Origin: Thermomicrobium sp. 4228-Ro
GTDB lineage: Bacteria; Chloroflexota; Chloroflexia; Thermomicrobiales; Thermomicrobiaceae
NCBI RefSeq assembly: GCF_026241205.1
Contig: NZ_JAPFQM010000006.1
Location: 186,001 to 250,000, forward strand
Length of the DNA stretch: 64,000 bases
Direction of reading: 5' to 3'
Numbering within the stretch: the stretch's first letter is position 1; the number at the start of each line of letters is the position of its first letter. A program made the position numbers and the translations under genes. This document shows, piece after piece, positions 35,984 through 42,831 of the stretch. The notes below the pieces were generated by a model that did no database searches, was not told where the DNA came from, and saw only the letters and a program-made list of their open reading frames with translations.

Positions 35984-36001
35984 GCCTTCCAGTGCGCTGC
36001 C

Positions 36002-36781
36002 TCACCAAGCGGTCCAGCCGCCGTCGACCGGCAAGGTCACGCCGGTGATCATGCTGGCGGCATCGGAAGCGAGAAAGACGACCGCTGCGGCGACCTCCTC
36101 CGGCGTCGCGAGGCGGCCGAACGGGATGCGGCGCAAGACTTCCTCGCGAAACCCAGGGATCCGTTCGAAGTAGGGGCGGGTCAACGGCGTCTCGACGAAG
36201 GTCGGTGCGACGGCGTTTACGGTGACGTTGTAGGGAGCCCATTCGATCGCCAGCACCTTGGTCAGTTGTGAGACCGCCCCCTTGCTCGCACAGTAGGCAG
36301 CACGGTCGGCCATGCCGACGAGCCCCATCGTCGAGCCGATGTTGACGATCCGACCGGCGCGCTGGGCGACCATGTACCGTCCGACCGCCTGGCAGCAGAA
36401 GAAGAGTCCCTTGGCGTTCGTCTCCATGATCGTATCCCAGGCGTCCTCGGTTACCTCGAGCGCGGGCTGAGGAATGTTCAGTCCAGCGCTGTTGACGAGG
36501 ATGTCGATGTGACCGAATCGATCGTAGACTTCGTCGGCCATCCGCCGGATCTGCACGACGTCGCGAACGTCGACCGCGACTGGATAGGCCTGTCGGCCGC
36601 GCGCTTCGATCGCCTGGCAAACCGCGGCAAGCCGGTCCAGCGAGCGGCCAGCGACCGCGACATCGGCGCCCGCTTCGGCGAGAGCGAGCGCACTCGCATA
36701 CCCCAGGCCAGACGAGGCACCGGTGACGAGTGCGACCTTGCCGTCGAGCCGCCAGTCCAGCAATGTACGATCCTCGATCAT
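36002..36781 (-). CDS. Short-chain dehydrogenase/reductase
   Basis: A 259-residue SDR. Cofactor motif TGASSGLG (20-27), DVRD at 71-74, NSAG at 97-100, catalytic S150, Y163 and K167 (YCASK), and the C-terminal PVDGGWTAW. The arginine in VAGRSLDR after the second strand favours NADP(H). Similar to gluconate or glucose dehydrogenases, but the substrate is not deducible. GGAGGCGGGAC precedes the ATG. Confidence 0.9.
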   Translation of the reverse strand: MIEDRTLLDWRLDGKVALVTGASSGLGYASALALAEAGADVAVAGRSLDRLAAVCQAIEARGRQAYPVAVDVRDVVQIRRMADEVYDRFGHIDILVNSAGLNIPQPALEVTEDAWDTIMETNAKGLFFCCQAVGRYMVAQRAGRIVNIGSTMGLVGMADRAAYCASKGAVSQLTKVLAIEWAPYNVTVNAVAPTFVETPLTRPYFERIPGFREEVLRRIPFGRLATPEEVAAAVVFLASDAASMITGVTLPVDGGWTAW

Positions 36782-36906
36782 GTCCCGCCTCCATTCTTTC
36801 CGTGCCTGAAGGCAGTTTCGGAAAACGGCCGAAACGGTGCAAGAGGGAACAGATCGGCTGCGTGCCCTGAACAGGGTTCGGGTGATCGTGCAATCTGTTG
36901 CGTTTT

Positions 36907-36939
36907 TGTCACGCTACGGTGACAGCGGAGTCGTATACT
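36907..36939 (+). promoter_or_regulatory. Promoter of the small RNA with an inverted repeat
   Basis: TATACT at 36934-36939 is a good -10 box, placing the start of transcription near 36946. Over the -35 region lies a perfect repeat, TGTCAC (36907-36912), six bases, GTGACA (36919-36924). That is the geometry of a dimeric regulator site. The -35 hexamer itself (about 36911-36916) is poor, which suggests the promoter needs an activator. Confidence 0.6.
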
Positions 36940-36946
36940 GAAGCTA

Positions 36947-37030
36947 GGCCCCGACGATTCGAGGCCGGGAATCCGACACCCGAAAGGGGAGTAGGAAGCC
37001 CGAACTGAGGATCGTCGGGGTCGTTTTGTG
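36947..37030 (+). ncRNA. Candidate free-standing structured small RNA, about 80 nt
   Basis: CCCCGACGAT (36949-36958) pairs perfectly with ATCGTCGGGG (37011-37020), closing a 72-nt element. Inside, CGGG (36966-36969) can pair with CCCG (36999-37002), and CCC-GAAA-GGG (36979-36988) forms a GNRA hairpin; an asymmetric loop with GAGTAGGAAG lies between. TCGTTTTGTG follows the closing stem as in a terminator. A promoter sits at the right distance upstream. Both flanking genes read the other way, so it is not a leader of either. It does not match tRNA, SRP RNA, tmRNA, 6S, or riboswitch classes I can recall. Confidence 0.6.
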
Positions 37031-37239
37031 TTCGGCCACACACTGCGTTGAGCCTGCTGTGCGCGAACTGCTCTCGTGCAGCCGGGATTCCGTCGTTACT
37101 TGCTTTCCGTCACTGCTGGGACAGCGACACCAACTCTGTCAACAGTTCCAGCCGGCCGTGCCGATCGGACTTCGTCTCGCAGGGGCGAACGTCCAGTGCG
37201 GACGCGCGCCGGTGCCGCCGACCGGCCGACCCATCCGCG
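37031..37239. other. Gap between the small RNA and the dehydrogenase 3' end
   Basis: About 210 bases. No promoter, terminator or convincing gene is seen; short open frames here have poor codon use. Confidence 0.4.
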
Positions 37240-38121
37240 TCAGGCGTGACCGATGCCGGCGTGCGCTTCGATCACCTCGAGCAGCGAGGCGAAGTCCCGG
37301 TCGGCCTTGCCCGTCGCGATCGCCTCGAGGGCATGCTGGCGGACGAGATCGGCAATCGGGAGCGGTGTCGCAGTCGCTTCAGCGAGGTCGAGGGCGAGGC
37401 GTATGTCCTTCAGCCCCAACGCGAGGCGGAAGCCAGGCGGATCGAAGCGACGCTCGAGGAGCGTGCGGCCATAGCGCTCGACCAGGGGCGAGGAATAGAC
37501 AGCGGCAGCGACCTCGAAAAAGCGCTGGCGCGGGACGCCCGCCTTCTCGACGAGGACGAACGCTTCGCTGAGGAGCTCGACCAGCGACAGGATGAGGAAG
37601 TTCCCAGCGAGCTTGACGGCATGCGCCTGCTCGGGGCGCTCGCCGATGACGAACTGTTGCGGCCCCAGCGCGGTGAGCGCTGGCTGGAGTCGCTCGATCG
37701 CGGACGAAGGCCCGGCGACGACGAGCCGCAATGCACCCTGTGCAGCAGCGTCGGGTCGCCCGAAGACGGGTGCTGCCACGTAGTGCTGGTGGCGCGTCCG
37801 GTGACGCTCGGCCAGTTCGGCCGAGTAGCGGACGCTGAGGGTGCTCGAGGCGACATGGATACCGTCGCGCGGGAGTCCGGCCAGGATTCCGTGCGGTCCA
37901 GCGACGACCGCCTCGGTCGCGGCATCGTCAGCCAGCATCGTGAAGACGACACCGACCTCGGCAGCCTCGAACGGTGTCGCCGCGCGGACCGCGCCCAGCG
38001 CGACGAGTTCGTCCGCCCGTTCCGGGGTTCGGTTCCAGACCACCACGCGATGTCCGGCGCGGAGCAGAGCCTGCACCATCCCGCGCCCCATGTTCCCCAG
38101 CCCGACGAAACCGATGTCCAT
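37240..38121 (-). CDS. NAD(P)-dependent beta-hydroxyacid dehydrogenase (HIBADH family)
   Basis: A 293-residue dehydrogenase of the 3-hydroxyisobutyrate/tartronate semialdehyde reductase family. Motifs: GFVGLGNMGRGMVQALLRAGH for the dinucleotide, VVWNRTPERA with arginine at the second strand (favouring NADPH), ASSTLS and the catalytic lysine in AVKLAGNFL. In GRPDAAAQGAL the usual PVSGG pattern is changed to FGRPDAA, as in the glyoxylate-reductase-like subgroup. AGGGAGG before the ATG at 38121 sets the start. Confidence 0.88.
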   Translation of the reverse strand: MDIGFVGLGNMGRGMVQALLRAGHRVVVWNRTPERADELVALGAVRAATPFEAAEVGVVFTMLADDAATEAVVAGPHGILAGLPRDGIHVASSTLSVRYSAELAERHRTRHQHYVAAPVFGRPDAAAQGALRLVVAGPSSAIERLQPALTALGPQQFVIGERPEQAHAVKLAGNFLILSLVELLSEAFVLVEKAGVPRQRFFEVAAAVYSSPLVERYGRTLLERRFDPPGFRLALGLKDIRLALDLAEATATPLPIADLVRQHALEAIATGKADRDFASLLEVIEAHAGIGHA

Positions 38122-38241
38122 CGCCTGGCCTCCCTTCCCGATCGCGGTCCGATGCGCGAGCCGACTGTGCGAAGCGTACCGCACATCCACAGAGCGGAGG
38201 GCAACGAGGCGAACGCAGCCAGCGAGAGCTGGCTCCGGCCG

Positions 38242-40626: not shown

Positions 40627-41016
40627 TCATTCTACCGGCGAGTCGGATTGTCCGGTACCCTCGGCGGGAAAGAGAACGATCCCGCACCGCGTCATCGCCG
40701 CCAGGGTGGGAGCCAGCCGGGCCGCCTCGGAGGCAGCGTACACATGCGGTTCGGGGCGGGGCACACCCGCAGCGACGAGCGCCTGCCAGACGATACGGAA
40801 CGCGTCCTCCCGCGGCGGATCGGCATAGACGACGAGCGCATCGACGTCGCTCGCGACCGTCGCTCGCCCGCTCACCCAGGAGCCGAAGAGGACGACACGT
40901 TCCAGCGGCAAACACTCCGCCAGCGCAGCGACCGCCTTCTGGAGGCGCGCGAGTAGTTCCTCACGCGTCAGTTCCGGCCACGATACGCGCACAGAATTCC
41001 ACGACTCGTTGTGCAT
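40627..41016 (-). CDS. MNT-type nucleotidyltransferase (antitoxin-like)
   Basis: A small protein of about 129 residues with the minimal nucleotidyltransferase signature G45-S46, ten residues, D57-V-D59 (FGSWVSGRATVASDVDALV). In known HEPN-MNT pairs the MNT enzyme AMPylates the HEPN RNase and so neutralises it. It starts within the 3' end of the HEPN gene (ATG 41016, or GTG 40992), so the two are translationally coupled. The C-terminal part is Ala-rich and lacks further motifs. Confidence 0.83.
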   Translation of the reverse strand: MHNESWNSVRVSWPELTREELLARLQKAVAALAECLPLERVVLFGSWVSGRATVASDVDALVVYADPPREDAFRIVWQALVAAGVPRPEPHVYAASEAARLAPTLAAMTRCGIVLFPAEGTGQSDSPVE

Positions 41017-41359
41017 GGGCGAGAGCCCGCTCCGCTTCGCTCCGCGTATACAGTTCCCGCGGTGCACCGCTCGGATGCACATCCGGATATCGCGCCGCGA
41101 TGTATCCCTTGTCCAGCTCGAGTGCAGCCTCGATGAGATCTTCGGGCACTGGAACTTGCGCGGCGAGGGACCGGAGCAACGCCGCGACGGAGTTCCCCCA
41201 GGCTTCCGCGCCCTTGCGCTGGAGAGCACCCTTGACCGCCTTTTCGGCGGCTTGCTGGGCGGCGAAGACGGTCCAATCGTAGAAGCCACCGGAACAGGCA
41301 TGCCGCGCCAGCGCGAGGTCGCCCTCTGCTTGCTCGAGCCAGTCTCGACTGCGTTCCAT
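40961..41359 (-). CDS. HEPN domain protein (toxin-like RNase)
   Basis: A 132-residue helical HEPN protein. The opening RDWLEQAEGDLALARHA and FAAQQAAEKAVKGAL are family hallmarks, and the RNase motif R90-x4-H95 (RYPDVH) is intact. GGAGG six bases before the ATG at 41359 fixes the start. With the overlapping MNT gene it forms a two-gene module of the HepT/MntA toxin-antitoxin kind; whether it is toxic here is inference. Confidence 0.85.
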   Translation of the reverse strand: MERSRDWLEQAEGDLALARHACSGGFYDWTVFAAQQAAEKAVKGALQRKGAEAWGNSVAALLRSLAAQVPVPEDLIEAALELDKGYIAARYPDVHPSGAPRELYTRSEAERALAHAQRVVEFCARIVAGTDA

Positions 41360-41549
41360 CCAGTGCCTCCACGAGGCTGAGGATACCAGATGGGAAGCCC
41401 AGCACCCGTGCAGTGCGCTGTTTCGTCCCGGTGCTTCGCTCCGAGCGCGCGAATGGATACCTCGAGCCGAGCGGTATACTGCCAACATCGGTCGCTGCCG
41501 AAGCGATCCAAGCGAGGTCACGCCTCACCGTTCGGGTGGCACGGTTGCC

Positions 41550-41612
41550 GTTACAAATGCGTTACAAAGCGTATGCGACTCCTTGACACGGGTCGTATCA
41601 GCATGGTATATA
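41550..41612 (+). promoter_or_regulatory. Strong promoter of the hsp20-BON operon with upstream direct repeats
   Basis: TTGACA at 41583-41588, an 18-bp spacer and TATATA at 41607-41612 form a near-consensus sigma70 promoter. Upstream, GTTACAAA occurs twice (41550-41557 and 41561-41568), 11 bases apart, so on the same face of the helix. This is a likely activator site for the heat-shock gene. It is not a CIRCE element, and no other inverted repeat is evident. Confidence 0.7.
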
Positions 41613-41672: not shown

Positions 41673-42125
41673 ATGCTGGAGCGTTGGAATCCGGTGGCCG
41701 AGGCTGAACGGATGCTGACCGAGATGAATCGCCTCATGTCGGAGGTGTTCGAACGACCGCTCGTGCGGGCACGGGTACTGGCCTGGAGGCCAGCGACCGA
41801 TGTCTACGAGACCGGGGACGCACTGGTCGTACGGCTCGCCGTACCGGGGGCGAAGCCCGAGGACCTCGAGGTGACGGTCGAGCAGAACGTCGTGACCGTC
41901 CGCGGGAAGTACGGCTACCGCCTCAGCGAAGACGAGGCCAAGCAGGCGACGTGGTACCGGCGCGAGATCACGACCGGTGAGTTCGCCGAGAGCATTACCT
42001 TGCCGGTACCGGTCAATCTGGAAGGTGCCAAGGCGACCGTCGAGAACGGTATCGTCACGCTGACGTTCCCGAAGGCCGAAGAGGCTCGCGTGAAGCGGAT
42101 CCCGGTCCAGATTTCCGGTAGTTGA
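41673..42125 (+). CDS. Hsp20/alpha-crystallin small heat shock protein
   Basis: A 150-residue ATP-independent holdase. The alpha-crystallin domain spans about 40-140: PATDVYETGDALVVRLAVPGAKPEDLEVTV in parts, the RREITTGEFAESITLPVPVN loop, and GIVTLTFPKAEE. A C-terminal I-P-V replaces the I-x-I motif (RIPVQISG), usable for oligomer contacts. AGGAAGGAGGGG precedes the ATG. It is co-transcribed with the BON protein 34 bases on. Confidence 0.93.
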   Translation: MLERWNPVAEAERMLTEMNRLMSEVFERPLVRARVLAWRPATDVYETGDALVVRLAVPGAKPEDLEVTVEQNVVTVRGKYGYRLSEDEAKQATWYRREITTGEFAESITLPVPVNLEGAKATVENGIVTLTFPKAEEARVKRIPVQISGS

Positions 42126-42159
42126 GGCCCTGGGGAATGACAGGAAGGGAGGGAGTCGT

Positions 42160-42831
42160 ATGCCGCGCGTGCGAACGGACGAGGAGATCCAGCAGGACGT
42201 CCTGGACGAACTTGACTGGGACCCCGAAGTCGAGGTGACGGACGTCGGTGTCACCGTCCATGACGGTGTGGTCACGCTGACCGGAACGGTCGACAGCTTC
42301 CTGAAGAAGTGGGCGGCCGAACGGGCTGCGCTCCGCGTCGAGGGTGTCCGGGCGGTCGTCAACCACATCGAGGTCGTGCCGCGTGGACTCGGCGTGCGGA
42401 CGGACGAGGACATCGCGCGTGCGGTGGCGACCGCGCTGGAGGAGAATCCTGCCATTCCGCATGACCGGATCAAGATCCGGGTCGAAGAAGGCCGGGTGAC
42501 GCTCGAAGGCGAGGTCGACTGGCACTACCAGCGACGCGAGGCGGAAGAGACTGCGCGCCGTATCAGCGGCGTCAAGTCGGTCATCAACCTCATCACCGTG
42601 CGGCAACCGACGGTCGCGCCGGACGACATCAAACGACAGATCGAGCAGGCCTTCGTCCGGCACGCTGAAATCGACGCGGAGAACATCCAGGTGCGGGTGG
42701 AAGAAGGCGGCCACGTCATCCTCTCGGGCACAGTCCGCTCCTGGGCCGAGCGGAAGGAGGCCGAGGAAGCAGCCTGGCGCGCACCCGGTGTGACCAAGGT
42801 GACGAACCTGATCCGTGTCCAGGTGCCGTGA
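42160..42831 (+). CDS. Triple BON-domain protein
   Basis: A 223-residue protein of three tandem BON domains (about 5-75, 80-150, 153-223). Each repeats the pattern I-x-V-x-x-G-x-V-x-L-x-G-x-V, a helix with E/A-rich W-A-x-R-x-A-E, and G-V-x-x-V-x-N-x-I. There is no signal peptide, so it is cytoplasmic, unlike the periplasmic OsmY. BON domains bind membranes or help keep proteins in place under stress. It is the second gene of the hsp20 operon, so a stress role is likely. Confidence 0.9.
   Translation: MPRVRTDEEIQQDVLDELDWDPEVEVTDVGVTVHDGVVTLTGTVDSFLKKWAAERAALRVEGVRAVVNHIEVVPRGLGVRTDEDIARAVATALEENPAIPHDRIKIRVEEGRVTLEGEVDWHYQRREAEETARRISGVKSVINLITVRQPTVAPDDIKRQIEQAFVRHAEIDAENIQVRVEEGGHVILSGTVRSWAERKEAEEAAWRAPGVTKVTNLIRVQVP

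Follow-up and report, generated by a model that had tools for sequence, protein, structure and literature searches.

A predicted stand-alone small RNA of Thermomicrobiaceae with a conserved hairpin and a candidate stress regulon

Locus, fold and internal loop of the RNA

In the window, by which we mean the whole 64,000-nt stretch of DNA analysed, an SDR gene (36002-36781) and a hydroxyisobutyrate-dehydrogenase-like gene (37240-38190), both on the minus strand, flank a predicted small RNA of 76 nt on the plus strand (36947-37022), which is delimited by its homologues, by covariation and by the z-score of its fold, with the 5′ end placed at G36947 by inference. A closing stem of 14 bp brings together a 5′ arm at 36947-36960 and a 3′ arm at 37009-37022 (plus strand, the latter assigned from pairing in the alignment); the first-pass annotation had recognized this stem at 36949-36958 with 37011-37020, positions that do pair, but its length of 10 bp falls short of the full helix. 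An inner stem, again defined by pairing in the alignment, joins 36972-36974 to 36994-36996 (plus strand), and within it lies the GNRA hairpin described earlier, an apical 3-bp stem with its tetraloop, CCC-GAAA-GGG, at 36979-36988 (plus strand), in which alignment columns 33/42 are CG in nine copies, GC in seven and GU in one. The TATACT hexamer first proposed as a -10 box is present on the plus strand at 36934-36939, 7 nt before the RNA.

The fold is unusually stable for its composition, with an 89-nt stretch giving -49.5 kcal/mol against a mean of -30.2 kcal/mol for dinucleotide shuffles (z = -5.75; 0 of 200 shuffles as low), and it is better on the plus strand than on the minus strand of the locus. 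G-U pairs are frequent in the stems across the alignment, and with a covariance model the plus strand reaches 97 bits and the minus strand 26 bits; we therefore take the plus strand to be the RNA strand. Directly 3′ of the closing stem, the plus strand is T-rich at 37023-37030, as first noted. Reading this end as an intrinsic terminator is plausible but weak, since T occupies 118 of the 228 positions (52%) in the 12 nt that follow the stem in 19 copies, and a terminator consensus scan finds no match.

The earlier view that no known RNA class can be assigned agrees with our Rfam scan, in which none of 4227 families fits the RNA, whether the whole window is scanned at gathering scores or the local stretch at an E-value of 10. 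Divergent copies of the RNA likewise have no Rfam match, the matches that do occur being at chance level and elsewhere in those loci, and identity with SRP RNA, tmRNA or tRNA is ruled out by the lack of any covariance-model or ARAGORN match. Comparison across genomes bears out a free-standing transcription unit of about 80 nt, with its own promoter and a conserved RNA, and because both neighbours lie on the minus strand the RNA is, as first argued, neither a leader nor a 3′ tail of the window genes. It is intergenic, is conserved independently of its neighbours and carries compensatory changes, as stand-alone structured small RNAs do, and we predict with little reservation that it is a stand-alone small-RNA gene.

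The inner and apical stems are separated by an internal loop, with a short strand GACA (36975-36978, plus strand; alignment columns 29-32) facing a long strand GAGTA (36989-36993, plus strand) that contains a bulged G36991. The short strand is GAAA in most homologues and GA(A/C/G)A across copies, with the window and L002 differing at one loop position, and the long strand is GAGTA in 18 of 19 aligned copies and GATTA in the divergent copy L038. The consensus of the sarcin-ricin (bulged-G, loop E) module is AGUA opposite GAA with a bulged G, a pattern that most of the 19 aligned copies satisfy by sequence in their GAAA/GAGUA internal loop. The GAGTAGGAAG loop thus matches a sarcin-ricin module beside a GNRA tetraloop, set in this case in a short hairpin instead of rRNA; the module is recurrent and does not define an RNA family. 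PMC8450098 reports that most organisms keep the bulged G and that U, A or C replaces it mostly in mesophiles and psychrophiles, and the change of the bulged G to U in L038 is of a type covered by that work. The first-pass annotation had thought this loop to resemble a binding or ligand site. Because the sarcin-ricin module is a recurrent building block, nothing here points to a site for a small molecule, and the match instead suggests an arm for docking protein or RNA.

Distribution of the family and compensatory changes

The family comprises 20 known copies from 13 species of the heat-loving Thermomicrobiaceae, in an alignment that is essentially ungapped. Sixteen copies, that of the window included, made up the first alignment; three were added by the covariance model and one from T. 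roseum, and two candidates, L018 and L039, were dropped as chance matches in coding sequence. A second copy of the RNA lies in the same genome on another large contig, and among the carriers in genera g1 and g3 the seven most complete genomes have two copies apiece. The T. roseum copy (NC_011961.1:12691-12772) is intergenic and unannotated on the megaplasmid, and is 93% identical to the window RNA versus 55-58% for the flanks. Window positions 36000-38200 are collinear with NC_011961.1:11746-13838 on this megaplasmid at about 77% identity, so the window probably belongs to the corresponding large replicon in a different Thermomicrobium species.

When 84,980 species are scanned with a sequence pattern, 17 loci are returned, and every one whose source is named lies in a Thermomicrobiaceae genome or MAG, among them Thermomicrobium, Thermalbibacter, a Sphaerobacter MAG and bins such as HR26-HR28. 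With strict filters, a covariance-model search of 400 Chloroflexota genomes is positive in six, all of them Thermomicrobiaceae, and finds no copy elsewhere in the phylum; scans of phage, plasmid and viral sequences recover the T. roseum megaplasmid copy only, plus short chance matches. Because the species scan and the phylum search match Thermomicrobiaceae only, the RNA is lineage-restricted within the reach of these searches. A search of open-licence papers found no report of this RNA nor of any small RNA of this lineage. The family is thus uncatalogued until now, while its kind, the stand-alone bacterial small RNA, is already known.

Covariation was assessed in 19 sequences, 17 of them distinct, on a structure that was hand-drawn with these sequences in view and that is paired in 94.1% of cells; sliding the 3′ arms lowers pairing to 28-51%. 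Nine pairs change on both sides, compared with 3.9 in shuffles (0 of 500 shuffles as high): three of the 14 pairs of the closing stem (columns 2/75, 3/74 and 8/69, with five more pairs changed on one side and pairing kept), two in the middle helix (21/55 and 22/54), three in the inner stem (26/50, 27/49 and 28/48) and one in the apical stem (33/42). In the inner stem, columns 27/49 are CG in ten copies and UA in seven, and columns 28/48 occur as CG, GC and UA. Pairing fails in one genus at columns 22/54, 20/56 and 26/50, with genus g3 noted for the loss of some pairs in the middle; two copies have a C28-A48 mismatch, and in the closing stem of the T. roseum copy one change, C5-A72, is uncompensated. 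With an effective sequence number of about 1.45 the alignment is shallow, and part of the conservation therefore reflects relatedness. Compensatory changes in the closing and inner stems of homologues had been proposed at the outset as a check on the fold; they are found in both, and, as judged from the aligned copies, the hairpin is preserved by matched mutations, i.e., the structure is selected.

Upstream direct repeat and candidate regulon

A -10-like hexamer is found 7 nt before nucleotide 1 of the RNA in nearly all of the 19 copies, and in genus g3 the promoter reads TTGACA-17-TANNAT or a close variant. Upstream of it in the window is a direct repeat of 7-4-7 architecture, TGTTGCG-TTTT-TGTCACG (36896-36913, plus strand), which we propose as a response-regulator site; it is 89% identical in T. 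roseum, where the surrounding flank is 58% identical. The pattern TGTNRCG-N4-TGTNRCG precedes the RNA in g1, g2 and g5, three of the four genera, with one mismatch in a few copies. Its two 7-bp halves have an 11-bp period, and the repeats start at -41, -51, -61/-62 and -72, i.e., on one helical face (P = 0.002 against random positions, with only four distinct positions). Genus g3 has no direct repeat and a near-consensus promoter instead, so any stress control would not be universal in the family.

The operator originally proposed over the -35 region was a different one, an inverted repeat TGTCAC-N6-GTGACA. These letters do occur, at 36907-36924, but the palindrome is absent from every homologue inspected, including L004, which is the closest, and T. 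roseum: TGTCAC is the right half of the direct repeat, GTGACA is kept in no homologue inspected, and we reject the palindrome as an operator. The direct repeat resembles PhoB/OmpR-type operators in its repeated half-sites, its 11-bp period and its fixed helical phase relative to the promoter; the half-site here is TGTNRCG. A PhoB phosphate-starvation reading was set aside, as PstS-type genes were located with no box shown upstream of them.

Across Thermomicrobiaceae, 56 direct-repeat sites are found versus 31 for a reversed control. Of 28 sites examined away from the RNA, 19 fall between genes, a count that is approximate because the ORF calls are mechanical. One such site in the window, TGTAACG-CATT-TGTAACG (41549-41566, minus strand), precedes an Hsp20 gene and the BON-domain gene that comes after it (41673-42831). 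Similar sites precede Hsp20 in three other genomes (G001, G002 and G006) and in T. roseum, and Hsp20-linked sites are present in four Thermomicrobium genomes and T. roseum. Other genes adjoining direct-repeat sites encode DksA/TraR-type, acetyl-CoA synthetase, COX2, SHOCT and Usp proteins, those for Usp and the DksA/TraR-type protein being from relatives. By these counts and positions the direct repeat is a real regulatory site in Thermomicrobiaceae, and the natural reading of the genes that it precedes would be a stress or energy-limitation regulon.

The same part of the window (40627-41521, minus strand) contains adjacent genes for a nucleotidyltransferase-domain and a HEPN-domain protein, which are annotated so at the same place in T. 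roseum. This gene arrangement is known from toxin-antitoxin pairs.

Gene neighbourhoods, rival explanations and proposed role

The Thermomicrobium loci have the orders SDR-RNA-dehydrogenase and gltX-RNA, at positions that are orthologous across species, and over all loci the neighbours include gltX/antiporter, SDR/dehydrogenase, aminotransferase/MmgE, PolX and archease. Archease adjoins a copy of the RNA in three genera, and RtcB does so too in two of them. In genome G013 archease-RtcB follows 69 nt downstream of the RNA in the same orientation; in G015 it is 205 nt from a divergent archease gene, with PolX on the other side; and in G020 it is divergent from an operon encoding a sigma-region-4 protein, a weakly HPF-like protein (an assignment below curated cut-offs), RtcB and archease, with the direct repeat between. 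Two genomes of genus g5, both without Ro60, show such an operon, with all four genes at L117 2366-5590 and with those for the sigma-region-4 protein, the weakly HPF-like protein and RtcB at L170 7347-9764; G019 has the operon as in G020 together with a decayed RNA copy in the syntenic place (L170 7150-7230, minus strand), from which the 5′ stem arm is missing. Among 21 genomes, 11 have both RNA and archease, six have neither, three have archease with no intact RNA, and one, a 62%-complete genome, has the RNA only (Fisher p = 0.016, in a test that ignores phylogeny). The RNA tracks RtcB less well than archease. No RNA was found beside archease in G009, G014 or genus g1, and in Thermomicrobium the RNA is not near archease.

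A bacterial Y RNA occurs with Ro60/Rsr next to rtcBA, and our RNA is like it in its long end-to-end stem and in the copies that lie beside RtcB or archease. It differs in that TROVE/Ro60 is found in none of the 21 Thermomicrobiaceae genomes, with detection in a control genome, and in having no Y RNA match in Rfam; identity with the Y RNA/Ro60 system is ruled out by the absence of a TROVE protein from these genomes. The rtcBA repair operon is treated in PMC7790460. Another candidate structured RNA confined to one lineage of Chloroflexota is the Chloroflexi-1 RNA motif (RF01698; PMC2864571), but it was reported from Chloroflexus aggregans and gives no Rfam match to the Thermomicrobiaceae RNA.

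Four rival explanations, taken here in falling order, were weighed against a protein-binding RNA. An antisense RNA acting in trans, with inner loops or the T-rich 3′ end pairing with mRNAs in the manner of Hfq- or ProQ-dependent sRNAs, would agree with a free-standing gene that has its own promoter, a T-rich end and probably regulated expression; we consider it unlikely, given that no unpaired seed is conserved, the invariant unpaired bases forming a structured module and the rest being helical. A short functional substitute for 6S RNA, in which the hairpin would bind RNA polymerase holoenzyme and restrain transcription, is suggested by the distribution of RF00013, which is detected in all g2 and g5 genomes and not in g1, g3, g4 and g6, Thermomicrobium included (21 genomes); g1 and g3 are the genera that uniformly carry the RNA, and 6S RNA, like this one, is a hairpin-type regulatory RNA that stands alone. 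The 6S hits in relatives are at other loci than the RNA. In genomes at least 70% complete, nine have the RNA only, two (G015 and G020) have both, six have 6S only and two have neither. The roughly complementary pattern is a lead only, because it runs along genus boundaries and both RNAs occur in two genomes; in g1 and g3, moreover, 6S may simply be too divergent to detect. 6S RNA is about 180 nt long, with a large central bubble that mimics an open promoter. The present RNA, at 76 nt, is less than half that length, has small internal loops and no large single-stranded central bubble, and is not matched by the 6S model at an E-value as permissive as 10, all of which makes such a substitute improbable.

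Less probable again is action in cis, with the RNA serving a neighbouring gene as an attenuator or terminator leader. In g3, some copies are indeed followed 47 nt downstream by a GYD-domain gene of the same strand, so a leader role is conceivable in that genus, and the G013 copy precedes archease-RtcB in the same orientation; against this, both window neighbours are on the opposite strand, and the neighbours vary between loci while the RNA and its promoter stay constant, so that no constant class of same-strand gene lies downstream, as it would for a riboswitch or leader. The two copies per genome at unrelated sites might also recall a REP, MITE or similar DNA hairpin, mobile or repeated, that happens to carry a promoter. 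This is very improbable: the copies number exactly two in the seven most complete g1 and g3 carriers and are not the many scattered, polymorphic copies of such elements, they keep orthologous positions across species (SDR-RNA-dehydrogenase and gltX-RNA), and they show compensatory changes and a conserved promoter distance.

We favour, at about even confidence, a Thermomicrobiaceae-specific, stress-regulated, protein-binding stand-alone RNA as the best overall explanation. The gene would be transcribed from its own sigma-70-type promoter to give a 76-nt closed hairpin, with the 14-bp closing stem, short middle helices and an apical arm bearing the sarcin-ricin-type loop and GNRA tetraloop. A regulator of the OmpR/PhoB-family type at the direct repeat may have the RNA made under stress or energy limitation, and such stress regulation, as read from the upstream site, is somewhat probable. 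The RNA would then act as a structured protein-binding RNA, as decoy, scaffold or cofactor, a mode toward which the balance tips slightly; hardly a base lies outside a helix or rigid module, and those that never vary are concentrated in the loop module and the closing stem, which argues for protein binding and not antisense pairing. Because copies of the RNA adjoin these genes in three genera, the partner could come from RNA repair or ribosome protection, with archease/RtcB and an HPF-like protein as candidates, a link that is the foremost clue to function but that we hold tentatively and with low confidence. More doubtful still is the specific proposal that the RNA is a Ro-independent counterpart of Y RNA, with an archease/RtcB and HPF-like partner and switched on together with Hsp20 and Usp.

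A fully closed short hairpin, a sarcin-ricin-type module, the absence of an open seed and an RNA-repair neighbourhood set this family apart from known small RNAs. It has clear boundaries, a conserved promoter, a candidate regulon and a copy in T. roseum, which is cultured and sequenced. The archease/RtcB neighbourhood further offers a hypothesis as to what RNA-repair enzymes may act on, or be guided by, in bacteria without Ro60.
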